In this document: piece after piece, positions 9,271-39,441 of the stretch
How positions within the stretch are numbered: the stretch's first letter is position 1
How the letters are laid out: each line of letters begins with the position of its first letter
From: an uncultured Rhodospirillaceae bacterium
Lineage (GTDB): Bacteria > Pseudomonadota > Alphaproteobacteria > UBA8366
Assembly (NCBI GenBank): GCA_913043025.1
Contig: CAJWLM010000001.1
Coordinates: 124,001 to 188,000, forward strand
Direction of reading: 5' to 3'
Length of the DNA: 64,000 bases
Notes under the pieces: model-generated
Seen by the model: only the letters and a program-made list of their open reading frames with translations
Told to the model about the DNA's origin: nothing
Databases searched by the model: none
Made by a program: the position numbers and the translations under genes

Positions 9271-9390
9271 CCATGGCCCACAATACTGCGGCAGAAACGC
9301 AATCCTTTGTCGAAGCCGTCTGTTAAGTTTTATGGCGTTCAGGAATCTAAATTCCGAGAGCTTCGGCTGCGGAAAATGTATCCTCCGAAA

Positions 9391-12188: not shown

Positions 12189-12227
12189 ATGCAACCATAA
12201 CTAAACTTTCTAGAGCCCAAATTAGGG

Positions 12228-12252
12228 ATCCTAGTGGCCACTTGGGATTTTT
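12228..12252 (+). terminator. Possible terminator after the dehydrogenase gene
   Basis: ATCC-AGTGG pairs with CCACT-GGGAT around a tight GGCC turn, with a bulge (T versus CA), and is followed by TTTTT. It lies 40 bases after the stop codon. The small loop and the bulge make it a moderate candidate. Confidence 0.45.
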
Positions 12253-12330
12253 CGTGAAATGCCGTCATTAAAAACAGATCTCAAATACAAGATCACTCAG
12301 GATAGGTTTTAGTGGAAAGTGTCTAACATC

Positions 12331-22067: not shown

Positions 22068-22762
22068 AGGAGACTCAATTGGGCTGGTGTTTTTCGGAAA
22101 ACTGGTGATAGCAGATTTTCGTCATCATTTCTTACGTTATTAACCCTATTGGATATTCTGTGTGCAAGAATAGGTTTGGTATAGGGTTTTAAAATTGAGA
22201 AGGTTTCCGTTGTTGGTGCAGATAGCCAAGTGGCGTAATTTTTGCTGCTCACAATCACTGGCATTCGGCGATGAATATGGGCAATTGACGGTGATGCCTC
22301 GGTTGTTACAATAGCAAAACTTGTAAAAATTTTGCCATTTATATCAGTGTAAGTTTGCCAAATTCCAGCTAAAGCGAAAAGGTTTTCGTGTTGAGGATGT
22401 ATGAGCCAGGGCTGTTTCTTTCTGCCGTTTTCTGTTGCCCATTCGTAGTAGCCGTCTGCTGGAATTAGGCAACGTCTGTACTTGAAGTCTTCTCGGAATA
22501 CTGCTTTGCGATTTAAAGTTTCTGACCTTGCGTTGATCAATTTGCCAGTTTTATTGTTAGAATGGGGCCAAGACTTATTGAGACCCCAATACGAAGATAT
22601 TAGCTCATTACCTTTGTTGGACGCACGAACGACTGGCACGAAATTAGTAGGTGCCACGTTGTATCGAGGTTCAATATTGCTAATATTGGATGTTTCGCTA
22701 TTGATATTGAATAGGGCTCTAATTGCCACCAAAGGGGATGAGATAGTATAGCGTCCACACAT
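22064..22762 (-). CDS. yedK: SRAP-domain abasic-site protein YedK (HMCES homologue)
   Basis: The 232-residue product begins MCGRYT, so removal of Met exposes Cys2, which crosslinks to abasic sites in single-stranded DNA. The other conserved active-site residues are seen: Asn77 (INARSET), Glu107 (GYYEWAT) and His164 (IHRRMPVI). The open frame extends 13 codons upstream to 22801, but the chemistry requires Cys at position 2, so ATG 22762 is correct. It protects abasic sites during replication. Its start is only 37 bases from the start of the divergent PrpD-family gene, so the promoters must overlap. Confidence 0.93.
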   Translation of the reverse strand: MCGRYTISSPLVAIRALFNINSETSNISNIEPRYNVAPTNFVPVVRASNKGNELISSYWGLNKSWPHSNNKTGKLINARSETLNRKAVFREDFKYRRCLIPADGYYEWATENGRKKQPWLIHPQHENLFALAGIWQTYTDINGKIFTSFAIVTTEASPSIAHIHRRMPVIVSSKNYATWLSAPTTETFSILKPYTKPILAHRISNRVNNVRNDDENLLSPVFRKTPAQLSLL

Positions 22763-22799
22763 GCCATGCATAATGACAAAAAAATCACGGAGATTCACC

Positions 22800-24299
22800 A
22801 TGCAAAATCATATTATTCGTGTTTGGGCATCAGCGGATGAGCACAAACGGGAGGAGGAGCTAGCATGGAAGCTTGCTGTGCTTGCTTCTGATGAGGCGCC
22901 GGTTGAAAACGTGGTGGAGTCGATGGTTATAAATCGTATCATAGACAACGCGGCAGTCGCTATGGCCTCGCTAAATCGTTCCCCAGTCATAACAGCTCGT
23001 GAACAGGCGTTAAGCCACCACCGTTCAAATGGGGCAACGCTTTTCGGAATGTCAAGTGATTACCGGATCCATGCTGAGTGGGCAGCATGGGCAAATGGTA
23101 CGGCCGTGCGTGAGCTTGATTTTCATGACACCTTCCTGCACTTGGAGTTTGGTCACCCAGGTGACAATATTTGTCCACTAATAGCCGTTGCACAACAGAT
23201 GCAAAGAACTGGGGGTGATTTAATTAGAGGAATAGTAACAGCATACGAAGTGCATGTACGTCTAATGCGATCAATTCAATTGCATAGCCATAAAATAGAC
23301 CATGTGGCGCATACTGGAGTGGCTGCGTGCGCAGGTATTGGCGCTTTATTAAGATTAGACCCCGAGGTTATTTATCAAGCTATTAATCAGACCCTGCATG
23401 TGTGTTGTTCGACGCGTCAGTCAAGAAAAGGATTAATTTCATCGTGGAAATCGGCTGCACCGGCACATTCTTCAAAGCTCGCTATTGAGGCTGTTGACCG
23501 TGCGATGCGTGGCGAGAGTGCTCCTTCTCCGATCTATGAGGGTGAGGATAGTGTTATTGCGTGGCTTCTTGATGGAGATAAAACAGAATATAAAATTGAT
23601 TTGCCAGATGCTGGAGAGCCAAAGAACGCTATCCTCCAAACGTGGACTAAAGAGCATTCTGCTGAATATCAAGGGCAAGCATTTATTGATCTCGCTTTTA
23701 AAATGCGAGATCGGATCGAAAACCTGGCGCTCATATCGGAAATCACCATAACGACAAATAAGCATAGCCATAATGTCATTGGATCGGGGTCCGATGATCC
23801 TCAGAAATATTCGCCGGATGCTTCGCGAGAAACTCTTGACCACTCACTACCATATATTTTCGCAGTAGCACTTGAAGATGGAACGTGGCATCATGAAGCT
23901 TCATATTCTGAAGAGCGAGCGCATCGTCCTGAGACGCAAATACTCTGGAAAAAAATCAAAACAGAAGAGGATGATCTTTGGGAGCAACGTTATTTATCAC
24001 TTGATCCTGAGGAAAAGGCATTTGGCGGTGCTGTTCGAATTTCATTCAAAGATGGTAAGATTATCGAGGATGAAATTCTTTTTGCAGACGCGCACCCTCA
24101 AGGTGCAGAGCCATTCAAACGTGAGGATTATATTTCCAAGTTCTTGACGCTGTCAGCTGGCGTCGCAAGTGATCATGAACAACGTCGCTTCATCGATTTT
24201 GTGGAGCAGCTCGCAAATATAAAATCAGAAACGATGATTGGAATTAATCCCATTGCTGATATTGGTGTCTTGAAACGTGGGGGAAAGGGTATTTTCTGA
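22800..24299 (+). CDS. prpD: MmgE/PrpD-family dehydratase, long (2-methylcitrate dehydratase-like)
   Basis: This 499-residue enzyme belongs to the MmgE/PrpD superfamily, the longer clade that contains PrpD. Visible blocks are ANGTAVRELDFHDTFL, FGHPGDNICPLIA (catalytic region), HTGVAACAGIGALLRL, WKSAAPAHSSKLAIEA, and SRETLDHSLPYIFAVALEDG near the C-terminus. PrpD dehydrates 2-methylcitrate to 2-methyl-cis-aconitate; relatives include aconitate decarboxylase and iminodisuccinate epimerase. GGAG at 22789-22792 fixes ATG 22800. No prpC or prpB-prpC unit is adjacent. An aldo/keto reductase gene follows 39 bases later and is probably co-transcribed. The prpD symbol is by similarity only. Confidence 0.83.
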   Translation: MQNHIIRVWASADEHKREEELAWKLAVLASDEAPVENVVESMVINRIIDNAAVAMASLNRSPVITAREQALSHHRSNGATLFGMSSDYRIHAEWAAWANGTAVRELDFHDTFLHLEFGHPGDNICPLIAVAQQMQRTGGDLIRGIVTAYEVHVRLMRSIQLHSHKIDHVAHTGVAACAGIGALLRLDPEVIYQAINQTLHVCCSTRQSRKGLISSWKSAAPAHSSKLAIEAVDRAMRGESAPSPIYEGEDSVIAWLLDGDKTEYKIDLPDAGEPKNAILQTWTKEHSAEYQGQAFIDLAFKMRDRIENLALISEITITTNKHSHNVIGSGSDDPQKYSPDASRETLDHSLPYIFAVALEDGTWHHEASYSEERAHRPETQILWKKIKTEEDDLWEQRYLSLDPEEKAFGGAVRISFKDGKIIEDEILFADAHPQGAEPFKREDYISKFLTLSAGVASDHEQRRFIDFVEQLANIKSETMIGINPIADIGVLKRGGKGIF

Positions 24300-24338: not shown

Positions 24339-25349
24339 GTGAATTATCAGTTGTTAGGGAATAGTGGAATTAAAATTAGCCAGATTTGCCTTGGAACCAT
24401 GAATTTTGGTGATGCCACTGATTTGAAGCAGGCGACGGCCATTCTTGAAAAAGCAAGGAATTTAGGGGTTAACTTTATTGATACAGCCGACGGTTACACT
24501 AATGGTGCATCTGAAGAAATCCTCGGCAAATTACTTAATTCTGAACGGGATGAATGGGTCTTGGCTACAAAAGTTGGACAGGCGGCCGGCACCGATAAAC
24601 GCAAAAAAGGTTTGTCCCGAAAATGGATGTTTGAAGCAATTGATCACAGCCTACAACGTCTTCAAACTGACTATGTTGATGTCTTTTACATGCATCATAT
24701 TGATTGGGAAACTCCCCTCGATGAAAGTGTCCATGCGATGGGTGAAATTATTGCGTCAGGCAAAGCGCTTCACTGGGGGTTTTCAAATCATCGCGGATGG
24801 CAGATTGGAGAGTTAATACGAATCTGTGACACATTAGGCGTACCTTATCCAATCGTGTGTCAACCGCATTACAACGCGATGATGCGAATTGCTGAGCATG
24901 ACGTGCTCCCAGCCTGTGAGTATTACAATATTGCTGTGACGCCTTTTTCACCTCTCGCGCGGGGCGTACTTACAGGTAAGTATCAGTATGGTAAAAGACC
25001 AATTCCGGAATCACGAGCTGCTCGCGGTGACAAAAGCATTCTTGAGCGTGATTTTAGAGAAACAAATTTTCAATTTGTTGATGCTGTAAATGCTCACATA
25101 AAAGGTCGAGATATGACATTAATCGACTTTGCTATGTTGTGGTTGTTTAACAATAAATTAGTAACGAGTGTTGTTGTGGGCCCACGTACTTCAGCGCAAC
25201 TTGAAAGCTATTGCAGTTGCTTGGGACAAGAATTTACAGCAGAAGATGAAGCTCTAGTGAATTCATTGTGCGCAAGCGGGTATGCAACTTCTTTCAATTT
25301 CCTTGATCCGAGGTATCCGCCGATGGGGCGCGTTGCAAAAACGAGTTAA
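24339..25349 (+). CDS. Aldo/keto reductase
   Basis: The 336-residue TIM-barrel oxidoreductase has the catalytic tetrad Asp48, Tyr53 (DTADGYTNGASEE), Lys78 (LATKVG) and His119/His120 (DVFYMHHID), plus the C-terminal NADPH-binding VVGPRTSAQLE. Its start LLGNSGIKISQICLGTMNFG is that of the YajO/Tas-like subfamily. It reduces an unknown carbonyl compound. The GTG start follows GGGGAGG. The stop codon overlaps that of the convergent PrpD-family gene in a TTAA. Placement with PrpD-type enzymes suggests it acts on an oxo- or hydroxyacid-derived carbonyl. Confidence 0.88.
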   Translation: MNYQLLGNSGIKISQICLGTMNFGDATDLKQATAILEKARNLGVNFIDTADGYTNGASEEILGKLLNSERDEWVLATKVGQAAGTDKRKKGLSRKWMFEAIDHSLQRLQTDYVDVFYMHHIDWETPLDESVHAMGEIIASGKALHWGFSNHRGWQIGELIRICDTLGVPYPIVCQPHYNAMMRIAEHDVLPACEYYNIAVTPFSPLARGVLTGKYQYGKRPIPESRAARGDKSILERDFRETNFQFVDAVNAHIKGRDMTLIDFAMLWLFNNKLVTSVVVGPRTSAQLESYCSCLGQEFTAEDEALVNSLCASGYATSFNFLDPRYPPMGRVAKTS

Positions 25350-26716
25350 AAACTCGCACGTGTCAGACTGACCAGGCTTTGAACGCTCTCTAGATTCTCG
25401 AAATTCCAGAGCGCATCTAAAATTTTGTCTTGTTGTGGTTTTTTAATTACCCCTTCTGTAAGAGTGCGAAATTTAGTCTCTACACATTCAATGTCGGGGC
25501 CCCGAAGAACATCCTCTGGTGTCTGAACATACTCTGCGGTAAAGCTTTCACCAGTTTTGAGAGTTGCTTTAAGTCGACAAGAACGTGTTTCTGGGGCAAC
25601 TTCATTAAATGCATCATCAAAGACAATTTCTATTTTACTTATGAGTTCGCGCACATCTTTTTTAAGATATCGATTATTTTCGAGGCTCTTGCCATTAAAA
25701 GTTCCATCTAATAAGGCGGCGGCAACACAGAATGGTAGCGAATGGTCAGCGGTTTCGCGTGTTCTCGGTTCCCAAGTCGCATTTTGATCAATCCATTTTT
25801 CAAATCCATGTCGGTAAGTGTAAATTTTTAAACTTTTTATCTCGGATGCATTTATGGTCTGAGAGAGCTTTAAAGCAGCAAAAATGGGGACTTGGATCGC
25901 ATCCCGCACCGGAAATGTTTTAACGTTAGTTTTTTGCAGTGCAAATATTGTACTTTGCTTAAACTTATTAGGGATTTGGACTCGGTCGAATTTTCCGACG
26001 GTTTTTGCATAGAGACCATGTATCCCCTCGAATGGGTCTTCGGGTCCGCTCATTCCGTTCTCAGCTAACAATGCTGCAAAAACACCCTCGCGTGCCGCAT
26101 TCGGGCCGGCCATTCCTTTCCACATTGATAGGTTGCCGCGCCGAGTCTGATTAAGTGCAATATTGGCGGTGGCAGCAATCGCGGCTGCATGACGCATTTG
26201 TTCTGAATCAAGCTTAAGTAATCGGGCCGAAGCTAATGCCATTGCGCTAGCAGAGCACACTGGTTGGTCATAACCTTCTGCATTGAAGGGGGCCGTATCG
26301 CAAAGACGGACCTGGATTTCATAACTAACGATTATTGCTACTAGGAGGTCTTGAGGTAAAGCATCAATAGCCTCTCCAAGTGCTAGGATGCCGGGAATGT
26401 TATCTGAGGGGTGTGCTGTTGAACGCATCAAATAGGCGTCGCTTAAATCTAGGTAGCGCACCATTGCGCTATTAACTAACGTTGCATGCTCTACGGAAAC
26501 CCTTTTGAGCGTTCCGAATATGCGAGCGCTCCTCCCCACTTCTACCGGCGCGGAAATATTCTCAGCTGCTTTCACTGTTGGAGCATTTATAGCTCCGAGT
26601 GCACAACCAAAAGAGTCAATCAAACGAATTTTAGTTGCCTTGATGGCGGCCGGATTAAGATCGTCGTAGGTAATACTACTGGCAAAGTTAATAAGTCTTT
26701 TCTCTGTCTCATCCAT
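25346..26716 (-). CDS. MmgE/PrpD-family protein, short clade (copy A)
   Basis: This 456-residue enzyme carries RYLDLSDAY, HPSDNIPGILALGEA, NQTRRGNLSMWKGMAGPNAA and TRETADHSLPFCVAAALLDG, the conserved blocks of the MmgE/PrpD fold. It is the last gene of a five-gene leftward operon that also holds two paralogues (29283-30650 and 30659-32029). The three share start MDxTxx and identical motif layout, so they arose by duplication and differ from the long PrpD at 22800. The start codon overlaps the preceding ThDP gene's stop (TGATG). No Shine-Dalgarno sequence is seen, in keeping with coupling. The reaction is unknown: dehydration, decarboxylation or epimerisation of a di- or tricarboxylate. Confidence 0.86.
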   Translation of the reverse strand: MDETEKRLINFASSITYDDLNPAAIKATKIRLIDSFGCALGAINAPTVKAAENISAPVEVGRSARIFGTLKRVSVEHATLVNSAMVRYLDLSDAYLMRSTAHPSDNIPGILALGEAIDALPQDLLVAIIVSYEIQVRLCDTAPFNAEGYDQPVCSASAMALASARLLKLDSEQMRHAAAIAATANIALNQTRRGNLSMWKGMAGPNAAREGVFAALLAENGMSGPEDPFEGIHGLYAKTVGKFDRVQIPNKFKQSTIFALQKTNVKTFPVRDAIQVPIFAALKLSQTINASEIKSLKIYTYRHGFEKWIDQNATWEPRTRETADHSLPFCVAAALLDGTFNGKSLENNRYLKKDVRELISKIEIVFDDAFNEVAPETRSCRLKATLKTGESFTAEYVQTPEDVLRGPDIECVETKFRTLTEGVIKKPQQDKILDALWNFENLESVQSLVSLTRASF

Positions 26717-28350
26717 CAGTGTTTATTACCGGCGCTTGAGGGTCGCTTGACTAAGGACCATGTGTTGGGCACCTCTCCAATAGGCACTTCAATAAGCGTT
26801 GGCCCAGGCGAATTCATGCTTTCATCAAGTGCCGCTCGAAGGGCATCCGGTCCATTTGCATATAAACCCGCCATTCCAAATGTTTCCGCCATTTTTGCAA
26901 AGTCGGGATTGTGTAGATCTACTCCTATATGACGCCCACCATATCCTTCTTTTTGGAAACGCTTCACATTGCCGTACGCGTTGTCAGCAAAAACAACGCA
27001 CACGACATCGATTCCATGAGCTACAGCGGATGATAGCTCTTGCACATTAAACATGAAACCACCATCACCACAGATACAAACTACCTTTTTATCTGGTAGC
27101 GCGACTTTTGCCCCAAGAGCAGTAGGATAGCCATACCCAAGGGTAGCCTGATACCCGGGAGTTATAAGTGTGCGTGGCTGATAAATGGGACACCAATTTT
27201 GCATAAACGTAGCCATTTGAGTGACGTCTGTAACAAGTATACCGTCCTCTGGTAGAGCTTCACGTAACACTTTGCCAAACCCATATTGTGGCTGGAGATC
27301 TTCGAGTTTAGCTAGGGTGTCTTTTTTAGCCGAATTCAATTCGGTGGTTCGGCTTTCACGAATTTTGTTATGGGGTCCTACCCTGCTTTCCAATAATGGC
27401 AGCGCTTTTTTTGCAGTCGTGACCATAGTAATATCGGCCTCACGTGGAAGTTTTGCTTGATGCTTATCGGGATCAATGCGTATTAATTTAACTTCTTTTT
27501 CACGCCCCCATGCCAATCCGGGTGATGAAAATCGCGTTCCCACGACTAGTGCGACGTCAGCCTCTTCCCATAACTTTTGCCCTGTTATCATGGTCTGAGC
27601 AAGGTAATGGCGATCAGTAAGTGCGCCGCGGCCTGTACGGCTCATAATGACCGGTGCCTCGAGCATTTCGGCTAGATTCTTTAATTCCGTTTCGGCACCA
27701 AAGACACCCGAACCGACAAGTATCATAGGTTTCTCGGCTTCTCCGAGCATCTTTGCCGCAGCTTCAAGTGAATCCTCTTCAACATCTGATTCGATTTCAT
27801 AATTCTCAATGTCAAGTAGAGAAACATCACTGATTTTCCCCATGATATCGGGAGCCATTTCAAAAACGACTGGCTGCTTACGTCCCCTAAGCATTTGACT
27901 AAAAGCCTCCTGAAGAACCGGAGGAGCATCGGCTGGGGTGTCTGCACGTCCAACCCATTTTACAACGCCTCTCATGGCATTCGTTTGATCGATAATCTCA
28001 TGAGTTGCTCCAAGGCCAACGCCTATTTGATGGGAGGGAATTTGACCTGCGATACATATCACTGGCACGTTTGAGCCATATGCAGTGCAAAGCGCAGCGC
28101 CAGCATTTAATAATCCGGGCCCGGGCCCAACGATGCAAGCACCAACTTTGCCACTCGCTTGAGCATAACCAAGGGCCATATATGCGGCGCCTTGCTCGTG
28201 GCGGGTATGGATTGTCCGAAGTTGGTTGCGGGCCTCGAAAAGCGCATCAAAGGTGTTATCAAGTTGAACACCTGGTAGGCCGAAGATTGTAGTAACGCCA
28301 TGGTTTACAAGTGTTTGGATGATAGCTTGACCACCGGTCATATCGGTCAT
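26716..28350 (-). CDS. Thiamine-diphosphate-dependent enzyme, acetolactate-synthase-like
   Basis: This 544-residue ThDP enzyme has the three-domain layout of the acetolactate synthase/decarboxylase family. The catalytic Glu is in TRHEQGAAYMALGYAQ, the ThDP/Mg motif spans GDGGFMFNVQELSS to FADNAYGN, and the central FAD-like domain carries VLVGSGVFG-type loops. True acetolactate synthases are close relatives, but here there is no small subunit and the neighbours are PrpD-family enzymes and a CmcJ-like oxygenase. A role as a 2-oxoacid decarboxylase, lyase or carboligase in the same unknown pathway is more likely (inference). AGGAG stands about 9 bases before ATG 28350. Confidence 0.87.
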   Translation of the reverse strand: MTDMTGGQAIIQTLVNHGVTTIFGLPGVQLDNTFDALFEARNQLRTIHTRHEQGAAYMALGYAQASGKVGACIVGPGPGLLNAGAALCTAYGSNVPVICIAGQIPSHQIGVGLGATHEIIDQTNAMRGVVKWVGRADTPADAPPVLQEAFSQMLRGRKQPVVFEMAPDIMGKISDVSLLDIENYEIESDVEEDSLEAAAKMLGEAEKPMILVGSGVFGAETELKNLAEMLEAPVIMSRTGRGALTDRHYLAQTMITGQKLWEEADVALVVGTRFSSPGLAWGREKEVKLIRIDPDKHQAKLPREADITMVTTAKKALPLLESRVGPHNKIRESRTTELNSAKKDTLAKLEDLQPQYGFGKVLREALPEDGILVTDVTQMATFMQNWCPIYQPRTLITPGYQATLGYGYPTALGAKVALPDKKVVCICGDGGFMFNVQELSSAVAHGIDVVCVVFADNAYGNVKRFQKEGYGGRHIGVDLHNPDFAKMAETFGMAGLYANGPDALRAALDESMNSPGPTLIEVPIGEVPNTWSLVKRPSSAGNKH

Positions 28351-28418
28351 TGGGATTTTCTCCTAAGTTGGCAAGAATATTTACCATGATTGCAAAGTAA
28401 GTGAATGTAGTTGCTCTA

Positions 28419-29258
28419 TCACTTGTTAAAAAATACTAACGCTCGCATCTCACAGCTTTCTCGCGGATATTTATCGCTATCTTGATTTGGTAGAGGAAAT
28501 GATGAGTGTGCTGTCCACCTGGCTTTCCCGTCTATTGCAGAGTCGTACACTTTGAAAATGAGCACTTCGTCGCGCATCATTTCAGGAAAATAAAGCCATT
28601 TATGCCTGGCGCTGTGGGTGACCACGTATGTTTCCCCAACCCTATCTGGGTAAACCCGTCTCGATGGAAAGAGATCCTCTTTAGCAATATTGCGCGCGTC
28701 ACAAATACAGAGCGGGTCAGATTTTATCGGCCTATTAATTGCCCTCCAAACTTGGATGATTGCAAAACGATTTTTTAGCAGATTGTTTGCTTCATTCGGG
28801 AGCAAGTCATAGACCCGCTGAGGGCCAGACCACTCTGTGTAGTCATTGTGAACACGCCGAACCGGCTCGCGCACTGGCTGGCCCTCTCGTGCGTCTCTAT
28901 CACCAGAGCGCAGCGTATGATCAAAGACATGGACTCGAGTTGCCCCAGACACTAACTGAATAAGTTTTGCTGTCTCATCATAATAGATTTGCCGCATTTG
29001 TTCAGGACAATAAAAGTCTTTTACTTTGGTCTTATGGCTCAGAAACTCGAAACCGTGAATATCTAATGTAAACGTTCCCTGCATTGGTCTGGCGTTCTCA
29101 ATTTTCACTTTTCGATGTTCGTAATTACCTTGATATATACGTGTAGAAACGGTCTCGTCGCCTGTAAGGTTCTCCGCTGGTGTGCCATCATCAATATAAT
29201 ACATTAATGGCGCTTCAACTGTGTCTTGGGACATCTTAGTATTGGCCTTGCTAGTCAT
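28419..29258 (-). CDS. CmcJ/NvfI-family oxygenase
   Basis: This 279-residue protein matches the CmcJ/NvfI (GA4-desaturase-like) family: VHVFDHTLRSGD, VHNDYT with His137-x-Asp139 as likely iron ligands, ANNLLKNRFAIIQVWRAINRPI, and the closing PRESCEMRALVFF. In characterised cases these are Fe(II)/2-oxoglutarate oxygenases or partners in antibiotic and fungal meroterpenoid synthesis. The substrate is unknown here. It lies between a PrpD paralogue (24 bases upstream) and the ThDP enzyme (68 bases downstream) in one operon. AAGGGG precedes ATG 29258. Its presence in a carboxylic-acid operon is unusual. Confidence 0.8.
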   Translation of the reverse strand: MTSKANTKMSQDTVEAPLMYYIDDGTPAENLTGDETVSTRIYQGNYEHRKVKIENARPMQGTFTLDIHGFEFLSHKTKVKDFYCPEQMRQIYYDETAKLIQLVSGATRVHVFDHTLRSGDRDAREGQPVREPVRRVHNDYTEWSGPQRVYDLLPNEANNLLKNRFAIIQVWRAINRPIKSDPLCICDARNIAKEDLFPSRRVYPDRVGETYVVTHSARHKWLYFPEMMRDEVLIFKVYDSAIDGKARWTAHSSFPLPNQDSDKYPRESCEMRALVFFNK

Positions 29259-29282
29259 CCTTGCCCCTTTCTCACCATTCTA

Positions 29283-30650
29283 CTAAACGCCCGTTAAGCT
29301 GACTAAGTCCTCAACTCGATCTATCTCTTCAAGGTGCCATATTGCATCTGCCAGTTTTCGACGGCTTGTTTCATTAAGGATGCCGCCACTCATTTTATTA
29401 AATTTCTTCTCAAGGTGCCGTCTTGGTAATCCGCGCTCAGAAAGAGCTTGGGTCTGACATCGTTCTGTTACAATTTCCCTTTCGGAAGGAAACCTTGCGG
29501 TCATGCGGCAATTTCTATCTTCTGGCGCTGCGGCAGTAAATCCTGGGTTCAGCTCAATTGTAATTTTACTCATTAATTCATTGACATCAGGGTCAAGGAA
29601 CCTCTTTTTTTCGAAAGTTTCGGGCGTGATATCCCCGTCTATAAGTGCAACCGCGGCGCAGAAAGGAAGAGAGTGATCTGCCGATTCACGTGTCATGGGC
29701 TTCCAAAAATCAGGGACCCCTATCCATCGTCCGAAGGCTTGATCGAAGGTATCAATTTTAAGAAATTCAATGTTCGAGACATCATCAATTTTTTCGCGCA
29801 TATCTAGTGCTGTCAATACGGGGACATGGCAGCCGTATCGAATAGGAAAGGTCTTGATATCGCTTTGCTGCACACCAAACTCATGATTGGCCAAAGACTT
29901 TGGAACAGGCACATCATATTGCGTACCTTTCATTAGCTGGTTCCAGGCACCCATGTCACCCTCAAAAGGGTTCTCAGCGCAAGTCATACCCTCGCGTGCG
30001 AGGTAAGCAGCAAATACACCCTGTCGCGCAGCATTCGCGCCAGATAATCCCTTCCACATAGATAGAGTGCCAGTTCGGGTTTGATTGAGTGCCATATTTG
30101 GGATGAGAGCTAATGATAACGCTTGATGCATTTCATCTTTTGAAAGTTCTAGCAAACGGCCTGCACCAAGAGCGGCGCCTTGAACAACCTGAAATGGTTG
30201 ATCCCATCCAAATTTATCATTTGGCACCACATCAGCTAGGCGGCATTGGATTTCATAGGCAGCGGTGATAGCTGCTATAAGATCTTTTCCGCTTTTTTCC
30301 TCAGCCTCCGCTGTTGAGATTAGTCCAGCAATGACATCGGATGGATGGCTCACCCCGGCTCTGACATATGCGTCATTCATATCGAGATAACGTATCATGG
30401 CACTATTTACAAAAGTTGCACGTTCTGGGGATGTTGGAGTTAATGTGCCAAAAAGCCTGGCCGTTGGCCCTTCGGATATCGGATTAGCTAATCGACGAGA
30501 TATCCGCACTGGCTCCGCAAAGAACGCTGCCATAGCTACCCCAAGTGAATCTAGGATACGTTCCTTCGCAGCATCAATGACGCTATCGGGCAGTTTAGAA
30601 AAGGAAACTTTTGTTGCGAAGTTGACAAGTTTGTTGGCGGTTTTATCCAT
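29283..30650 (-). CDS. MmgE/PrpD-family protein, short clade (copy B)
   Basis: This 455-residue paralogue of the neighbouring copy C starts MDKTANKLVNFATKV and has RYLDMNDAYVRAGVSHPSD, NQTRTGTLSMWKGLSGANAA and TRESADHSLPFCAAVALIDG. Copy C begins only 8 bases upstream, so both must be expressed together. Family members act as homodimers; adjacent paralogues with the same motifs could form a heterodimer or work on successive substrates (inference). Compared with copy A, the loop around FGWDQPFQVVQGAALG and the C-terminal third differ most. AGG sits about 6 bases before ATG 30650. Confidence 0.86.
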   Translation of the reverse strand: MDKTANKLVNFATKVSFSKLPDSVIDAAKERILDSLGVAMAAFFAEPVRISRRLANPISEGPTARLFGTLTPTSPERATFVNSAMIRYLDMNDAYVRAGVSHPSDVIAGLISTAEAEEKSGKDLIAAITAAYEIQCRLADVVPNDKFGWDQPFQVVQGAALGAGRLLELSKDEMHQALSLALIPNMALNQTRTGTLSMWKGLSGANAARQGVFAAYLAREGMTCAENPFEGDMGAWNQLMKGTQYDVPVPKSLANHEFGVQQSDIKTFPIRYGCHVPVLTALDMREKIDDVSNIEFLKIDTFDQAFGRWIGVPDFWKPMTRESADHSLPFCAAVALIDGDITPETFEKKRFLDPDVNELMSKITIELNPGFTAAAPEDRNCRMTARFPSEREIVTERCQTQALSERGLPRRHLEKKFNKMSGGILNETSRRKLADAIWHLEEIDRVEDLVSLTGV

Positions 30651-30658
30651 GGTGCTGC

Positions 30659-32029
30659 CTATGTTTCATCAATGCCTGTTAGGGTCACTAGGTTTCCAAC
30701 AGATTTCATTTTGTTAATGCGCCAACAAAGACTGAGAATTTTTTTCCGAGTAGTTGATTTCAAAAAAGGTTTTGTGAGGTTATTGAATTTTGACTCAAGG
30801 ATTTTCTTTGGCATTCCACGAGCGTCATCTCTTGGAGTCATCTCGATTTCAACACTGATTTTCTTTCCCTTTTTTGTTGTTACTATTAACTGACAACATC
30901 GAATTTCGTATGCAAGCTCTGCATATTCGTTTGGTAGTGCCACCGAACATTTTTTCATAAGCGACAGAACGTCCTTATCCTTGTAACGTTCTGCACTGAA
31001 TGTCTCCGGGATAATTTTACCGTCGAGCATTGCGACTGAAACACAAAAGGGTAAAGAATGGTCTGCACTTTCGCGGGTAGTTGGTTTCCAGAATTCTGGT
31101 AGGTCAATCCAACGTTCAAAAGCTTGACGGATACTTCTGATTTCTAGGTGTTTTATGTCGCGCACCTTGACTTTTTTTCGCAATTCAAGGGCAGCTAAGG
31201 TTGGCGCATGACAATTGAAGCGAATTGGAAAAGACTTGATGGTAGTTTCCTCAATCGCAAAAGTATGCTTTGTGAATCTTGATGGAATTGGAATTTGGTA
31301 TTGTTCTCCAAATAACTGTTTCCAAACACCGTAATCACCTTCAAACGGTTGGTCCGGCCCACTCATGCCCTCGCGTGCGAGAAGCGCAGCAAAAACCCCT
31401 TGTCTTGCGCCTGCTGGGCCAGCCATTCCTTTCCACATTGAGATACGGTCTGTCCTTGTTTGATTTAAGGAGATATTAGGAACCAGTGCAAGTGATAGAG
31501 CATTTAACATTTGAGCCTTGTCTAGGTTCAAAAGTCGACTTGCACCAAGTGCTGTCCCCATGGCGACAACAGGAGTTTGATCCCAACCAAGTTGATTAAC
31601 TGGTACAACATCTACATACCGGCACTGAACTTCGTAGGCTATGATCAGGGAAAGGAGAAAGTCTTCGCCAGAACAATTCTCTGCTTCAGCAATTGCAAGC
31701 AACCCGGGCAAAGCATCGGCTGGATGACTTACGGATTCTCTTATGTAGGTGTCGGACAATTCAAGGTATCGGGTCATCGCTGAGTTCACAAAAGCAGCAA
31801 GATCAGGTGTCGTTGGGGTTAGTGTCGCAAAAGTACGCGCCATAGGGCCAATTGTGCTTGGGTAGGCAAGCTTACGTATTATCTTTATTGGAAGAGCATC
31901 ATGCGCTCCGATACTCACACCAAGGCAATTAATGAGCCTTGCTTTAGCATTCACAATCGCACGTCGACTTAAGTCCTCGAATTGTAGTTTCCTGGAAAAT
32001 GTTACCAGCTTATTGGCAGTCTGGTCCAA
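30659..32029 (-). CDS. MmgE/PrpD-family protein, short clade (copy C), operon leader
   Basis: This 456-residue enzyme is the first gene of the leftward operon. It starts with TTG at 32029, supported by an AAGGAAT ribosome site and by exact alignment of MDQTANKLVTFSRKL with copy B. Motifs are RYLELSDTYIRESVSHPAD, NQTRTDRISMWKGMAGPAG and TRESADHSLPFCVSVAMLDG. Note HPAD where copies A and B have HPSD. The N-terminal part keeps Cys-Leu-Gly-Val-Ser in NCLGVS, common in the family. It faces the lyase gene 204 bases away in a divergent arrangement. Confidence 0.86.
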   Translation of the reverse strand: MDQTANKLVTFSRKLQFEDLSRRAIVNAKARLINCLGVSIGAHDALPIKIIRKLAYPSTIGPMARTFATLTPTTPDLAAFVNSAMTRYLELSDTYIRESVSHPADALPGLLAIAEAENCSGEDFLLSLIIAYEVQCRYVDVVPVNQLGWDQTPVVAMGTALGASRLLNLDKAQMLNALSLALVPNISLNQTRTDRISMWKGMAGPAGARQGVFAALLAREGMSGPDQPFEGDYGVWKQLFGEQYQIPIPSRFTKHTFAIEETTIKSFPIRFNCHAPTLAALELRKKVKVRDIKHLEIRSIRQAFERWIDLPEFWKPTTRESADHSLPFCVSVAMLDGKIIPETFSAERYKDKDVLSLMKKCSVALPNEYAELAYEIRCCQLIVTTKKGKKISVEIEMTPRDDARGMPKKILESKFNNLTKPFLKSTTRKKILSLCWRINKMKSVGNLVTLTGIDET

Positions 32030-32233
32030 AAGTGCATTCCTTATTCCGTGCGCATTTGCAGAGTACTGAATTAAAGCCCATTCTAATCAATTCATGCAGA
32101 GGAGAATTTGGCAAAAGTGCTATGTTATTCTTCTGTTATAAGTAAAAATACCACACTACCATGTTCAGAAAGTTATCGCAAAATTGCTTGTTATCATGCC
32201 TTGGTTGAAACATTATCTTAAAGGGGGAAGAAA

Positions 32234-33148
32234 ATGAGAGATGCAAAAAGCAGAGGCCGTTTGTTGAAAGATCTCATTGAGGCGCCTGAGATTTTAATTT
32301 CGCCCGGCATATTCGACGGGTACAGCGCGCGGTTGGTTGAAAGTCGAGGATACAAGAGTGGAGCGATATCAGGTGCCGGACTATCTGAATGTCATTTAGG
32401 CTATCCAGATAGAGGGTTAATGGGCCTGGATGAAAACCTTTCGTGTTGCCGCAAAATTGCTGATTGTAGCAATCTATTGCTGCATGCTGACGCAGATACG
32501 GGCTATGGGAATGCAGTAAATGTTTTCTTCGTCACGCAGGCTTTTGAGAAAGCAGGAGTAGCGGCAGTAATGTTTGAAGACCAGACATGGCCTAAACGTT
32601 GTGGTCACATGGTTGGAAAATCAGTCATTGCCGCTGAAGAAATGATTGAAAAGATACACGCAGCCCGCGATGCCAAAAAAGATCCGGATTTCGTAATCAA
32701 AGCCCGAACTGACGCACGAGGTCCCTTAGGTCTTGATGAGGCCATACGGCGGCTCAATCTTTATGCAGAGGCTGGTGCTGATTTATTGTTTGCAGACGCA
32801 TTATTATCGGAGGAGGACATTCGGACTGTTGCTGCTAATGTTGACAAGCCATTAACAGTGAATATGGGACTCGGCATAAGAGCGCGGTCAACAACACCGT
32901 TAATTCCACCAAAAAAGTTACAGGACTTGGGTGTTGCTGCTGTATCCTATCCACGCCTACTGACGACATCTGCCGTGCGCGGAATGATTAACGGTTTCGA
33001 TGCATTCGAGGAAATGGTTGAGAAAAATGAACCTTCAGACAGAGCAGATCTATGTGTCAACTTTGAAGAACTCAACAGTATGATGGAAGTTGAATTTCTT
33101 GATGAACTCGAAGAGAGGTATGCAGCCGGACCTGGAAAAGCCGTCTGA
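32234..33148 (+). CDS. Isocitrate lyase/PEP mutase-family C-C lyase (dimethylmalate/methylisocitrate lyase-like)
   Basis: This 304-residue TIM-barrel enzyme has the superfamily marks LLHADADTGYGN (86-93, Mg site), FEDQTWPKRCGHMVGK with the KRCGH catalytic loop at 121-125, and ARTDARGPLGLDEAI. The KRCGH loop marks true lyases (PrpB, isocitrate lyase, 2,3-dimethylmalate lyase) rather than mutases or hydrolases. It should cleave a 2-hydroxy- or 3-hydroxy-carboxylate into two acids, one probably pyruvate or another 2-oxoacid. The two hydro-lyase subunit genes follow 14 and 9 bases apart, as lyase and dehydratase genes are associated in nicotinate-fermenting clostridia. ATG 32234 follows AAGGGGGAAG. 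Confidence 0.87.
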   Translation: MRDAKSRGRLLKDLIEAPEILISPGIFDGYSARLVESRGYKSGAISGAGLSECHLGYPDRGLMGLDENLSCCRKIADCSNLLLHADADTGYGNAVNVFFVTQAFEKAGVAAVMFEDQTWPKRCGHMVGKSVIAAEEMIEKIHAARDAKKDPDFVIKARTDARGPLGLDEAIRRLNLYAEAGADLLFADALLSEEDIRTVAANVDKPLTVNMGLGIRARSTTPLIPPKKLQDLGVAAVSYPRLLTTSAVRGMINGFDAFEEMVEKNEPSDRADLCVNFEELNSMMEVEFLDELEERYAAGPGKAV

Positions 33149-33162
33149 CAGGAGAGCTTTTT

Positions 33163-34413
33163 ATGGGAATGACTATTATTGAAAAGATACTTACGAAAGC
33201 GGGAGGTGTTCCGGTTAAGCCCGGTGACCTTGCGACCGTTAAGGTCGATGTTGCATGTCTATTTGATAATAATTTTATGGCCAGTGTCTGGCGTGATGTT
33301 TTGCATGTGGAAGATCCTTCCAAAGTAGTCGTCGTTATAGATCATCGTGCACCTGCAGCTCACGTCGGTAGTGCGCATGCGCATGCTACTGCCCGGACCT
33401 TTGTTGAAAAATTTGGCATCGAGCATTTTCACGATATTGGATACGATCAAGGTATCTGTCATGTGCTTATGGCCGAGCATGGTTATGCTAGGCCTGGCGG
33501 AGTTCTTCTTTGTAGCGACTCTCACACTTGTAGTGCTGGTGCTTTGAATTGCGCCGCACGTGGTGTTGGTTCACCAGACATGTTTTACGCAGTCTGCAAG
33601 GGAGAAACTTGGTTTCGTGTAGGCGAAACCATTAGGTATGAGTTAACCGGGCAACTTCCTCACTATGCTTTTATGAAAGATGTATTCTTCAAGATAGCCG
33701 GTGAATATGGTGGACACGTATCTCAAAATGTAGAATTCGGCGGTCCGGCACTTGGGACCCTGCCAATTGATGCGCGTAGAACGATGGCAACAATGGGAGC
33801 AGAGTTATCCGCAGAATTTGCAACATTTGAACCGGACGACATTCTTTTTGATTACGTCAAAGAGCGGACAAATGTCCCGTTCGAGCCTCAGATACCTGAC
33901 CCTGATGCTGATTATCTCGATAAGCGGGAAATAAATTTGAGTGAAATAAGGCCGCTAGTGGCGCTACCCGATAGTGTCGTTAATAATTCTGCGAATGTGC
34001 AAGATGTCGCTGGCACTAGGCTTGATCAATGCTTTGTTGGTTCGTGTGCAAATGGCACATTCGATGATTTATCTAGTGTTGCTCAGGTACTTGCCGGTCG
34101 ACGAGTTGCTCGCGGTACCCGCTTTATCATAACGCCAGGCAGCCAAAGCATATACCGCCGTGCTTTGAAGGCCGGCATTATCGAAATTTTGATGGATGCT
34201 GGAGCCGTGGTGACTAATTCTACCTGTGGTGCGTGTGGCGGAGGTCATATGGGTATTGTAGGTGCCGGTGACACTGTCATTACGGCGTCAACTCGAAATT
34301 TCAAGGGTCGCATGGGGGATCCCACCGCCAAGATATATATGGGTTCTTCGGCTACAGTGGCTGCCTCTGCAGTTGAGGGTGCAATTGCTGACCCCACTCC
34401 TTACTTGAGTTAG
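33163..34413 (+). CDS. Aconitase-superfamily hydro-lyase large subunit (LeuC/DmdA-like)
   Basis: The 416-residue product has the [4Fe-4S] ligands Cys294 (FVGSCANGTFDDL) and Cys355/Cys358 (NSTCGACGGGHMG), plus CSDSHTCSAGAL and the closing FKGRMGDPTAKIYMGS block. Its length fits the short archaeal/clostridial-type isopropylmalate, citraconate or dimethylmaleate hydratases rather than the ~470-residue bacterial LeuC. GANG in place of the usual CTNG-type tail (SCANGTF) is also seen. It would interconvert a hydroxy-dicarboxylate and its unsaturated form with the small subunit encoded next. Leucine biosynthesis is unlikely because no leuB or leuA is near. AGGAG precedes ATG 33163. Confidence 0.87.
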   Translation: MGMTIIEKILTKAGGVPVKPGDLATVKVDVACLFDNNFMASVWRDVLHVEDPSKVVVVIDHRAPAAHVGSAHAHATARTFVEKFGIEHFHDIGYDQGICHVLMAEHGYARPGGVLLCSDSHTCSAGALNCAARGVGSPDMFYAVCKGETWFRVGETIRYELTGQLPHYAFMKDVFFKIAGEYGGHVSQNVEFGGPALGTLPIDARRTMATMGAELSAEFATFEPDDILFDYVKERTNVPFEPQIPDPDADYLDKREINLSEIRPLVALPDSVVNNSANVQDVAGTRLDQCFVGSCANGTFDDLSSVAQVLAGRRVARGTRFIITPGSQSIYRRALKAGIIEILMDAGAVVTNSTCGACGGGHMGIVGAGDTVITASTRNFKGRMGDPTAKIYMGSSATVAASAVEGAIADPTPYLS

Positions 34414-34422
34414 GGCGCAAAG

Positions 34423-34932
34423 ATGGATGGATTAAATGTAAGGGCACGGGTATGGAAGTTCCCAGAAAATGTAAACACTGATCAAATAATTCCAAACCGT
34501 GCTTACTATTTATCGCCGGAGGAGCAGTTACCTTTTATTTTTGATGCGATGCGGCCCGGCTGGGTTGACGAGATGAAGAATGGAGATATCATCATCGCGG
34601 AACGAAACTTTGGCATGGGCTCATCACGACCGGCCGCCCGTAATTTAGCTCTGCTCGGAGTTGGCTGCTTGGTTGCAGACAATATAAACGGTCTTTTTTA
34701 TCGGAATTCAGTGAACTTTGGTCTTCCAGCAATAGAGTGCTCTGGCGTCTCAGATATGTTTGAAGAGGGTCAAGTTGCAGAGGTATCTTTCCAAGATTTT
34801 ACGATAAGGAATATTGACACCGGCGAAAGCTTAACGGGGCGCGAGGTTCCTAAGTCCTTGCTGCGCATTCTTAAAGCGGGCGGACTTTATCCACTGCTGG
34901 AGGACGAAGGTATGATTGCATTAGTCGAATGA
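34423..34932 (+). CDS. Aconitase-superfamily hydro-lyase small subunit (LeuD/DmdB-like)
   Basis: This 169-residue swivelling domain starts 9 bases after the large-subunit gene. It has VWKFPENVNTDQIIPNRAYYL and IIAERNFGMGSSRPAARNLALLG, then NSVNFGLPAIEC. The Ser-Ser-Arg substrate-binding motif is kept, but the residue after Arg is Pro instead of the usual Glu, and Met replaces the usual Cys before GSS. Both changes lie beside the active site and suggest a substrate other than isopropylmalate or aconitate (inference). YYLSPEE replaces the YLRT-type specificity loop. Length matches short archaeal-type LeuD. Confidence 0.87.
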   Translation: MDGLNVRARVWKFPENVNTDQIIPNRAYYLSPEEQLPFIFDAMRPGWVDEMKNGDIIIAERNFGMGSSRPAARNLALLGVGCLVADNINGLFYRNSVNFGLPAIECSGVSDMFEEGQVAEVSFQDFTIRNIDTGESLTGREVPKSLLRILKAGGLYPLLEDEGMIALVE

Positions 34933-36655: not shown

Positions 36656-37702
36656 CTACCATGCGGTTTTATACTTTTTGAAAGGGCTTTCAATCTTTTG
36701 CAGATCTTTGATGAGATCTGAGGGAATCCCTGGGTCATCTGTTTCTCGAATGCCGCTAGAAATAGCGTCGGAGGCGCCACCAAACCGATTTTCAACTTGT
36801 TTTGCTATGTTTTCATAGGTTTCAACCGCTGCGAAAAGACGAACAACGTCGTCATCAATCTCTTTTGGCATTTTGTCCCATAATTTTTCACGCGACATTT
36901 GATGTAATTTTTTTCCAAGGTCCTCAAGGCCATGTGTTTCCCAAACCGGGAAATAGTTCGGCGTTGATCCGTAGAACGCAACGCGATAGCGAACCCATTC
37001 GAGGTTTCTAGCAACTGTTTCTTCATCTGCTCCCGTAACAATGTAACCGCCACCCACGATTTCAAAATTTTCTCTTTTACGTCCAGACCGAGCCATTCCG
37101 GTTCTAATTTCCTTCATCACAACGCTGTCGATATATTTACGGGTGCAGAATGGGTGGAGGCGAACGCCGTCGCAGACTTGCCCCGCCAAGCGCAGCATGG
37201 CCGGCCCGACTGCTGCGATAGTTATCGGAACCATTGATTGCTTTGACGCGGGTGGTTTAAAATTAGGAGTCATTAAAGTAAACTGGTAATGTTCGCCTTC
37301 ATATTTTAGGTCTGTATCATTCTCAAAGCACGACCAGATCGCTCTAAGGGACTCAATATACTCTCGCATGCGTGGTACAGGTGGGCTCCACGGCACGCTA
37401 AAACGGCGCACATTATGAGCCCGAACCTGACTGCCAATACCGAGAATAAATCGTCCACCGGAACTAGCTTGTAAGTCGAAACATTCACCAGCTACAACCA
37501 TTGGACTGCGTGCGAATGCAATAGCAATTCCAGTCATTAGCTTTATTTTGGAAGTTGTTGTAATTGCGGCAGCATGGGGCAAGAATGGTGCATGTTGATT
37601 TTCCATGCTAGCAAGTCCATCATAACCATCAGCCTCTGCTTTCGCAGCTGCGCTTGCTGCATGATTGAGATTATCTTGCGGTAAAACTGTGTAAACGTGC
37701 AT
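36656..37702 (-). CDS. LLM-class flavin/F420-dependent oxidoreductase (second)
   Basis: This 348-residue luciferase-superfamily enzyme matches the TIGR03617-like subgroup: MHVYTVLPQDNL, EADGYDGLASMENQHAPFLP, IKLMTGIAIAFARSP, DLQASSGGRFILGIGSQVRAHN, and PITIAAVGPAMLRLAG. Cofactor (FMN or F420) and substrate are unknown. It is less like the enzyme at 9391-10302 than either is like its own subgroup, so the two are not recent duplicates. AGGAGG stands 5 bases before ATG 37702, the best ribosome site in this region. It is divergent from the aldolase pair. Confidence 0.85.
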   Translation of the reverse strand: MHVYTVLPQDNLNHAASAAAKAEADGYDGLASMENQHAPFLPHAAAITTTSKIKLMTGIAIAFARSPMVVAGECFDLQASSGGRFILGIGSQVRAHNVRRFSVPWSPPVPRMREYIESLRAIWSCFENDTDLKYEGEHYQFTLMTPNFKPPASKQSMVPITIAAVGPAMLRLAGQVCDGVRLHPFCTRKYIDSVVMKEIRTGMARSGRKRENFEIVGGGYIVTGADEETVARNLEWVRYRVAFYGSTPNYFPVWETHGLEDLGKKLHQMSREKLWDKMPKEIDDDVVRLFAAVETYENIAKQVENRFGGASDAISSGIRETDDPGIPSDLIKDLQKIESPFKKYKTAW

Positions 37703-37883
37703 TTGTTCCTCCTGTACCCTCTTTTTATGTATTGGCTATAGGGCATCCCTACAACAGCTACAAGACCTGTAAATTGTAAGTCTCCGATAATTCATTAGGA
37801 GTCTGGTCATTTGTATGAAAGCTGTGATATTTTCTATTTGGCAGTCTGGGCTGAAAATTCAGATGTACAGAGGAGGAAAAAAA

Positions 37884-38666
37884 ATGGCAGTTTTAGCAAG
37901 CGTCCATCCAGATAATTTGCGTAGTGTGCGTGGTCAAGTATCAGATGAAGAATGGCAGACTAGGGTTGACCTCGCTGCCTGCTACCGGTTGGTGGACTAT
38001 TACGACATGTCGGATTTGTTAGGGACGCATATTTCAGCGCGGGTGCCTGGAGAGAAAAATACATTCTTGCTCAATCCTTACGGTATGTATTTTGATGAGA
38101 TTACGGCGTCCAGCCTAATCAAAGTTGATTATGACGGCAACGTGTTGACTGAAACTCCATTCGATCTAAACAAAGCCGGCTTTACTATCCATAGCGCAGT
38201 GATGATGGGCCGCCCCGATATCAATTGCGCCTTGCACACTCATACCCGAGCTGGCATAGCAGTTTCCGCACTTAAATGTGGCCTTTTGCCAATGTCGCAG
38301 CATTCGGCTCGTTTCATTGATAACATTGGTTACCATGATTACGAAGGCGTAGCACATGATCATGATGAACGAGAACGTTTGCAGCGCGACCTCGGCGATT
38401 ATCTTTCCCTAATTTTACGTAATCACGGGCTACTCACCTGCGGGTTCAATATTGGCCATGCTTTTTGGTTGATTTATAAATTGGAGCGAGCTTGTCAGGC
38501 GCAAATAGATGGAATGGCCGCAGGTACAAAAGTGATCGAGATAGACAGAGGGGTGCAAGAAAGCACAAAAGAATTATTTGCTAAAAAGAAAAGTGCTGGA
38601 GGGGACCTCGGTTGGCCAGGGCATTTACGTCGGCTTGATCGTATGGACCCTAGCTACAAGAACTAA
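37884..38666 (+). CDS. Class II aldolase/adducin-family protein (first of a pair)
   Basis: The 260-residue protein has the zinc site of class II aldolases: LHTHTRAG (His-x-His) and LRNHGLLTCG (third His), plus ISARVPGEKNTFLLNPYG. Members include L-fuculose-phosphate and ribulose-phosphate aldolases and decarboxylases or dehydratases such as MtnB. This short form without phosphate-loop extension occurs in many marine proteobacteria; the substrate is unknown. The frame begins at 37815, but AGGAGG at 37871-37876 sets ATG 37884. A paralogue follows 22 bases later. Confidence 0.87.
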   Translation: MAVLASVHPDNLRSVRGQVSDEEWQTRVDLAACYRLVDYYDMSDLLGTHISARVPGEKNTFLLNPYGMYFDEITASSLIKVDYDGNVLTETPFDLNKAGFTIHSAVMMGRPDINCALHTHTRAGIAVSALKCGLLPMSQHSARFIDNIGYHDYEGVAHDHDERERLQRDLGDYLSLILRNHGLLTCGFNIGHAFWLIYKLERACQAQIDGMAAGTKVIEIDRGVQESTKELFAKKKSAGGDLGWPGHLRRLDRMDPSYKN

Positions 38667-38688: not shown

Positions 38689-39441
38689 ATGTCTTTAAAA
38701 AGTAAAGTAGCACCCGAGGAATGGCAAATGCGAGTCGATCTAGCAGCGGCTTATCGGCTCTGTGAGTTCTATGATATGACAGATCTAACTGGAACCCATC
38801 TCTCGGCTCGGGTGCCTGGTGAGGAGAATAATTTTCTTCTCAATCCTTACGGTCTATATTTCGAGGAAGTGACTGCATCAAGTTTGGTCAAATTAAGCTT
38901 AGATGGTGACGTGCTTGAGGACCACCTCGGCCTCGGCGTAAATTCTGCCGGTTACACTATTCATAGTGCTGTTCTGTCGGGTCGGGATGACCTTGATGCC
39001 GTTATGCATACTCACACGCGCGCCGGTATTGCTGTATCTTCCATGGAATGCGGCTTACTGCCGATGAGCCAACACTCCATGCATTTTCATAAATCTGTAT
39101 CCTATCATGATTACGAGGGGGTCGCGGTAAACCTTGATGAGAGAGAGATGCTGCAACGAGATTTGGGGCGTAATAATAAGGCAATGATGCTAAAGAACCA
39201 TGGACTACTTACTGCTGGGGTAAGTGTTCCAGACGCATTTTATGCCCTCATGCGGCTTGAAAAATCCTGCCAGGCACAAGTTGATGCAATGTCAACTGGA
39301 GCCGAGTTGCATTTAGTCCCTGAGGCAGTTTCTGACCACACAAATGGGCAGTTCAAAAACAGAGGTACAGAGCTTGCGGATCGAGGCTGGCCTGGGCATC
39401 TGCGTCGCCTAGACCGGATGGATCCAACCTACGCAGACTGA
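38689..39441 (+). CDS. Class II aldolase/adducin-family protein (second of a pair)
   Basis: This 250-residue paralogue of the preceding gene shows near-identical blocks (LSARVPGEENNFLLNPYG, MHTHTRAGIAVSSMECGLLPM, LKNHGLLTAG, GWPGHLRRLDRMDPTY at the C-terminus). All zinc histidines are kept in both copies, so both are probably active. The two share one operon, with GGGGAG before ATG 38689. They could form a heteromeric enzyme or act on successive aldol substrates of the same pathway. The C-terminal WPGHLRRLDRMDP tail is a subgroup mark. Confidence 0.87.
   Translation: MSLKSKVAPEEWQMRVDLAAAYRLCEFYDMTDLTGTHLSARVPGEENNFLLNPYGLYFEEVTASSLVKLSLDGDVLEDHLGLGVNSAGYTIHSAVLSGRDDLDAVMHTHTRAGIAVSSMECGLLPMSQHSMHFHKSVSYHDYEGVAVNLDEREMLQRDLGRNNKAMMLKNHGLLTAGVSVPDAFYALMRLEKSCQAQVDAMSTGAELHLVPEAVSDHTNGQFKNRGTELADRGWPGHLRRLDRMDPTYAD

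Follow-up and report, generated by a model that had tools for sequence, protein, structure and literature searches.

Two described systems join a hydro-lyase of the aconitase superfamily to a carbon-carbon lyase of the isocitrate lyase (ICL)/phosphoenolpyruvate (PEP) mutase superfamily. In the nicotinate fermentation of Eubacterium barkeri, the two-subunit hydro-lyase DmdAB is encoded with 2,3-dimethylmalate lyase, and the enzymes work by hydration followed by retro-aldol cleavage. In the methylcitrate cycle, PrpD, AcnD or AcnB, and PrpB carry out dehydration, hydration, and cleavage, in that order. Here we analyze a gene cluster at positions 25346 to 34932 of a 64,000-nucleotide stretch of DNA (the window) from an uncultured marine Rhodospirillaceae bacterium, in which two divergent operons encode enzymes of these superfamilies together with an oxygenase and a thiamine diphosphate (ThDP)-dependent enzyme. 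A first-pass annotation had read the eight genes as an undescribed pathway of hydroxy-acid degradation. Pfam and curated subfamily models, each score being compared with the cut-off of its model, placed all eight open reading frames at the positions and in the families that it had named. The unit that recurs across genomes is smaller and consists of the lyase and the two subunits of the hydro-lyase (the trio).

In architecture the trio resembles the DmdAB system, as a small subunit of the LeuD/DmdB family is encoded beside an ICL-family lyase, and the reaction logic that we propose for it would be the same. This likeness is one of architecture and family model rather than of Dmd sequences. The window differs in that it comes from other taxa, no nicotinate genes were seen around the cluster, PrpD genes lie alongside, the small subunit carries GSSRP, and the lyase has a signature of its own, which we call type 1. 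With the methylcitrate cycle, the cluster shares three enzyme superfamilies and the order of dehydration, hydration, and cleavage. However, a LeuCD-type enzyme replaces the monomeric aconitase, and the lyase and the PrpD proteins, whose substrate-site residues are altered, do not reach the equivalog cut-offs. There is also no methylcitrate synthase in the cluster, as had been noted before; the single citrate synthase gene of the genome is on contig C20.

Results

The first gene of the rightward operon (positions 32234 to 33148, forward strand) encodes a lyase of 304 amino acids that matches Pfam PEP_mutase with 158 bits. It scored 220.3 bits against the PrpB model TIGR02317, for which the cut-off is 354.4, and 86.4 bits against the PEP mutase model TIGR02320, for which it is 319.6. 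The catalytic-cysteine KRCGH loop is found in ICL-family lyases and not in PEP mutases; the first-pass annotation had reported it here, and it indeed reads PKRCGHM. We compared 46 type 1 lyases, using the numbering of E. coli PrpB. The catalytic set of PrpB (D58, D85, D87, E115, K121-R-C-G-H, and R158), including the catalytic cysteine and the acids of the Mg site, is intact in all 46. The fold, this full catalytic set, F or Y186, and P236 are also shared with PrpB and the petal death protein. What differs from both is a set of substitutions, with Y43 replaced by A, S, or T, along with G47A, E188D, T212G, and L234 to S or T, and an arginine-rich insertion, NMGLGIRARSTTPL, that stands in place of NITEFGATPL. 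All 46 lyases have A47, D188, G212, the loop NMG(L/M)G(I/L/M/V)RxRxTTPL, and S or T234; the window lyase reads D188, NMGLGIRAR-TTPL, and S234, where PrpB has E188, the NITEFG loop, and L234. In ICL and PrpB structures, the succinate half of the substrate is held by E188 together with the NITEFG-type loop. Because both are altered, the type 1 lyases probably bind their second product differently from succinate. Judged by these residues, the type 1 lyases are a subfamily of the ICL family distinct from standard PrpB.

The lyase gene is followed after 14 bases by the gene for the large hydro-lyase subunit (positions 33163 to 34413, forward strand; 416 amino acids; Pfam Aconitase) and, 9 bases further on, by that for the small subunit (34423 to 34932, forward strand; 169 amino acids; Pfam Aconitase_C). 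The large subunit belongs to the hacA_fam or short LeuC type (PRK00402, 428 bits with a cut-off of 385; TIGR01343, 412 bits with a cut-off of 385.7) and the small subunit to the LeuD/DmdB family (TIGR02087, 118.6 bits with a cut-off of 108.95). Both stay below the equivalog models of isopropylmalate isomerase (LEU2, 353 versus 611; leuD TIGR02084, 112.5 versus 246). The Fe-S cysteines C295, C355, and C358 of the large subunit are invariant in our alignment (A1).

In the small subunit, the GSSRE motif is a highly conserved substrate-binding motif (PMC7308503), and its serine, which is Ser642 in mitochondrial aconitase, acts as the base (PMC8184944). GSSRE is present in E. coli LeuD, in the five solved small subunits found in our search, and in the genome's own leucine-type LeuD, whereas the window subunit reads GSSRP. 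Among the small subunits collected, 76 have GSSRP, 6 have GSSRA, and only 1, the Halalkalicoccus outgroup, has GSSRE, so that proline or alanine occurs in 82 of the 83 subunits bearing GSSR. As the serines and the arginine are kept, the enzyme should be active. On this residue evidence, the lost glutamate marks a distinct clade of the aconitase superfamily and not a standard LeuCD.

The nearest solved relatives of both subunits are those of the Methanocaldococcus isopropylmalate/citramalate isomerase (PDB 4kp1 and 4nqy for the large subunit and 3vba for the small one). The Fe-S cysteines are common to the M. jannaschii and window enzymes. The loop after IIP, which takes part in substrate recognition, reads ARYLVYTKPEE in the Methanocaldococcus isomerase and NRAYYLSPEE in the window, and GSSRE contrasts with GSSRP. 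The window hydro-lyase is moreover tied to a lyase rather than to leucine genes. One arginine position in this loop we take to be the homoaconitase determinant; no arginine is found there in the window enzyme, which we read as pointing to an uncharged side group of the substrate. By curated cut-offs and residues taken together, the window enzymes can thus be placed outside PrpB, LeuCD, and PEP mutase; the first-pass annotation would have fallen had they been close orthologues of PrpB and LeuCD.

Scanning the LeuC alignment over about 85,000 species genomes yielded 79 loci, 74 of them with enough upstream sequence. They come mostly from alpha- and betaproteobacterial metagenome-assembled genomes (MAGs), and two cultivated isolates, Candidimonas nitroreducens (L116) and Bosea caraganae (L117), are also among them. 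A lyase gene lies on the same strand at most 400 bp upstream of LeuC in 50 of the 74 loci, and 42 of these lyases are 55 to 97% identical to that of the window. In a wider set of 91 loci, a lyase was present within 3.6 kb of LeuC in 68. The window's own 3.1-Mb genome has 10 such lyase genes, from which we estimate that chance alone would bring a lyase and LeuC together in roughly 3% of cases. What recurs as a genuine unit is the trio of lyase, LeuC, and LeuD.

According to the LeuC tree, one hydro-lyase clade pairs with at least three lyase subfamilies (type 1, a type 2 with the motif NRTGVSP, and a PrpB-like type), which indicates a functional link between the isomerase and its lyase partners. 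Type 1 and type 2 lyases occur together in 13 loci, mainly betaproteobacterial (L101, L115, L133, L143, L144, L147, L152, L157, L160, and L164; also L106, L109, and L112), and in most of these the type 2 gene is divergent from its type 1 neighbor. On a mobilizable plasmid of Ancylobacter pratisalsi, the trio, with a different lyase, forms an isolated three-gene island flanked by transposase genes and unrelated genes. In Streptantibioticus cattleyicolor, LeuC, LeuD, PrpD, and lyase genes are grouped. Within 33 kb, a Halalkalicoccus plasmid carries five PrpD genes, one lyase, LeuCD (its LeuD retaining GSSRE), PrpF, a luciferase-like (LLM) protein, a ThDP protein, and a tripartite tricarboxylate transporter. 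The annotated neighbors of plasmid-borne relatives of the lyase, LeuC, PrpD, and ThDP genes point to carboxylate catabolism, and no substrate name was obtained from them. Genes for the tripartite-tricarboxylate receptor TctC are present in 42 of the 79 loci; in 17 they share the strand and are no more than 3 kb away, and in one (L107) they come directly before the trio.

The leftward operon, on the reverse strand, is separated from the trio by the shared region of 204 bases that had been described before (positions 32030 to 32233). Aligned with the same region of two congeners, it has blocks such as GTTATCGCAAAATTGCTTG that are kept in all three, and these blocks are a possible operator. We name the PrpD paralogues from the promoter outwards, from A (promoter-proximal) to C (outermost), which reverses the earlier lettering. 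PrpD-A (positions 30659 to 32029; 456 amino acids; TTG start) is followed by PrpD-B (29283 to 30650; 455 amino acids), the oxygenase (28419 to 29258; 279 amino acids), the ThDP enzyme (26716 to 28350; 544 amino acids), and PrpD-C (25346 to 26716; 456 amino acids). The spacings between them are, in the same order, 8, 24, and 68 bases and finally an overlap of 1 base between the ThDP and PrpD-C genes.

The three PrpD proteins match the N- and C-terminal Pfam domains MmgE_PrpD_N and MmgE_PrpD_C (211 and 87 bits for A, 226 and 100 for B, and 234 and 98 for C) and are local duplicates, A and B being 50% and the other pairs 42% identical. The catalytic histidine (HPSD or HPAD) and both lysines of the family are kept. 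All three group with DHSL, the dehydratase-like half of the MmgE/PrpD family, whose known members use free acids that have a 1,4-dicarboxylate backbone. Their identity with E. coli PrpD and with the neighboring hiGC-type PrpD is 22 to 26% (24% for A versus E. coli), and they carry glutamine (DQ) where those two, and the dehydratase-like half as a rule, have histidine (DH). Their best equivalog score, that of PrpD-B, is 166.5 against a cut-off of 950. The genome has 24 MmgE/PrpD genes (for example, those at L183 to L199) and one gene for citrate synthase, so that most of these PrpD proteins must act outside a methylcitrate cycle. Such a number in 3.1 Mb is a striking expansion of a poorly characterized family.

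The oxygenase is a member of the CmcJ/NvfI family of Fe(II)/2-oxoglutarate-type enzymes (NF041278, 285.6 bits with a cut-off of 80). It is homologous to the solved 2-oxoglutarate dioxygenases 7eus and 7de2, with which its HxD motif (VHND) aligns. The ThDP enzyme, in which N, M, and C domains were recognized, belongs to the acetolactate synthase-like subfamily PRK08266 (685 bits with a cut-off of 571). Its nearest relatives elsewhere (63% identical) adjoin an aminotransferase gene, and nitroreductase genes are also found as neighbors of ThDP genes, although such contexts are not decisive. Of 16 CmcJ neighborhoods from the same taxonomic order, only a few include a gene for a PrpD, a lyase, a ThDP enzyme, or an LLM protein, within expectation given the abundance of such genes. 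One trio locus (L093) has PrpD-C (51% identical), an LLM oxidoreductase, and both class II aldolases that lie near the window cluster, but it lacks CmcJ and ThDP genes, as does every other trio locus except the orthologues. Because of L093 and of the aminotransferase neighbors, the oxygenase and the ThDP enzyme can be tied to the trio only locally; they are linked to it in two related genera only.

As relatives, the genome scan recovered marine "Rhodospirillaceae" MAGs. The gene order is kept in two members of the same genus (L031 and L032) and largely in two members of a sister genus (L033 and L034), which argues against a chance stacking of the eight genes. Within the genus, pairwise ratios of nonsynonymous to synonymous substitution rates (dN/dS) are 0.04 to 0.06 for the trio, with 0.04 for the lyase, and 0.07 to 0.20 for the leftward genes; the genes of the cluster are under purifying selection. 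The sister genus has retained PrpD-C (61% identical), the ThDP enzyme (81%), CmcJ, and the trio. Between CmcJ and the intact lyase, L033 has a decayed fragment of a second type 1 lyase (positions 10538 to 10972) and L034 a C-terminal remnant of PrpD-B (10432 to 10794). Both fragments have the appearance of gene loss under way.

Discussion

Our reading is that the core of the cluster (positions 32234 to 34932) is a catabolic hydro-lyase/lyase module for a branched acid, fed by one or more of the divergent PrpD proteins, and we consider this fairly probable. The order and direction of the reactions and the class of substrate would be as follows. At least one of the PrpD proteins most likely dehydrates or epimerizes a branched free acid, as PrpD does with 2-methylcitrate. 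The LeuCD-type enzyme, whose type of reaction follows from its family, may then hydrate a branched maleate- or malate-type acid or shift its hydroxyl to give a 2-hydroxy-3-substituted succinate. Finally, as its family and intact catalytic residues suggest, the lyase would cleave this product between C2 and C3 by a retro-aldol reaction into a 2-oxo acid and a short carboxylate. The 2-oxo acid would be pyruvate if C2 is methylated and glyoxylate if it is not. For the oxygenase and the ThDP enzyme, the best interpretation is that they provide lineage-specific steps that either precede or follow the module. No paper that joins these families or describes such a module was found in the open-access literature.

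Several observations weigh against this reading. A related LeuC has no lyase nearby in 23 of the 91 loci of the wider set. The full set of eight genes is confined to one genus, and the sister genus lacks PrpD-A and has at most the C-terminal remnant of PrpD-B in L034. No regulator or transporter gene is present in the window's own cluster, and although the nearness of TctC genes elsewhere may hint at carboxylate uptake, this is weak evidence because betaproteobacteria have many TctC genes in any case.

A broader version of this reading is that the trio belongs to a widespread aerobic pathway that degrades a branched dicarboxylic acid of the hydroxy or unsaturated kind, with a new hydro-lyase clade in which the nearly universal glutamate of GSSRE has been given up and a new ICL-family lyase subfamily that has an arginine-rich product site, and that it is fed here by the three PrpD proteins and the Fe/2-oxoglutarate oxygenase. 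This we put forward tentatively, leaning somewhat against it. If it holds, the rebuilt product site of the lyase implies a substrate and a second product other than those known for ICL, PrpB, and dimethylmalate lyase.

That all eight genes, together with the neighboring reductase, LLM oxidoreductase, and aldolases, form one pathway appears doubtful to us. Oxygenation and ThDP chemistry would then convert a larger natural compound into a branched di- or tricarboxylate that the PrpD proteins, LeuCD, and the lyase degrade. The order kept in two genera and the dN/dS values of all the genes are consistent with this, as is L093, where PrpD-C, the trio, the LLM oxidoreductase, and both aldolases have stayed together. 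However, the sister genus has lost PrpD-A and PrpD-B, CmcJ and ThDP genes are missing from L093 and from the trio loci other than the orthologues, and ThDP relatives associate with aminotransferases. Distant trios also mostly lack PrpD, CmcJ, and ThDP genes. With two PrpD genes gone from the sister genus, the single pathway of the first-pass annotation finds little support as an obligatory route of eight enzymes. What is left of that proposal is a hydro-lyase/lyase module without a synthase of its own; a place for the oxygenase, the ThDP enzyme, and all three PrpD proteins in one pathway with it is unsupported or weakly supported. Likewise, its expectation that the genes are conserved together is borne out far beyond the genus for the trio and within one genus for the complete set.

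A methylcitrate cycle without a nearby synthase, in which the PrpD proteins, the hydro-lyase, and the lyase process 2-methylcitrate made by the genome's single citrate synthase, would explain why the three types of reaction match in the same order and why a PrpD near the actinobacterial methylcitrate dehydratases lies next door. We hold it to be improbable, as the lyase is below the PrpB cut-off and has lost T212 and E188, the three PrpD proteins are far under every PrpD equivalog cut-off, there is only the one citrate synthase, and the genome has other PrpB-like lyases (in L200 and L201). We give just as little credence to the degradation of dimethylmaleate or 2,3-dimethylmalate as in nicotinate fermentation. 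The small subunit fits the LeuD/DmdB family and the two-subunit hydro-lyase adjoins an ICL-family lyase in both systems, but no other gene of nicotinate fermentation was recognized around the cluster, and that pathway is known from anaerobes. Phosphonate natural-product biosynthesis, in which PEP mutase and a LeuCD-like isomerase, paired in the known clusters (PMC8417944), would lead to phosphonomethylmalate-derived compounds, is very improbable and was rejected, because the lyase has the KRCGH loop and scores below the PEP mutase cut-off, and no gene resembling phosphonomethylmalate synthase was recognized in the window's cluster.

If the module is as we propose, a common operon of alpha- and betaproteobacteria that is annotated as "isopropylmalate dehydratase" plus "methylisocitrate lyase" is misnamed, and the substrate of the trio would be a carbon source in seawater, groundwater, and soil that has not yet been mapped. 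With the residue signatures, these enzymes can easily be told apart in genomes from those of leucine and propionate metabolism, and the signatures define two enzyme families whose specificity is directly testable.

Five further genes, which the first-pass annotation of the cluster had left unmentioned, are kept with it in L031 to L034. Upstream, on the forward strand, are a fourth PrpD (positions 22761 to 24299; NF042438, 736 bits with a cut-off of 950) and an aldo-keto reductase (24339 to 25349; assigned by Pfam), whose membership of the cluster, suggested by synteny, is uncertain. This PrpD is nearest to the actinobacterial methylcitrate dehydratase model even though it is alphaproteobacterial, and it always adjoins the cluster in the relatives; the genome has a second PrpD of its kind (47% identical; L199, positions 4222 to 5826). 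On the other side lie the LLM flavin oxidoreductase (36656 to 37702, reverse strand; Pfam, 197 bits; dN/dS, 0.05) and the two class II aldolase/adducin proteins (37815 to 38666 and 38689 to 39441, both on the forward strand; Pfam, 154 and 148 bits). On Antarctobacter and Shinella plasmids (L052, positions 8449 to 12897; L054, 8363 to 12891), a relative of the lyase (44 to 48% identical) stands beside AcnA, a dihydroorotase/amidohydrolase-type protein, and an isochorismatase, possibly as part of another catabolic pathway that ends in the same kind of cleavage. Elsewhere in the window's own genome, a leucine-type LeuC-LeuD pair faces a PrpB-like lyase (L200, positions 7885 to 10758; G000:C24), and an AcnA-like aconitase adjoins two lyases (L201, 6048 to 10599; G000:C10).

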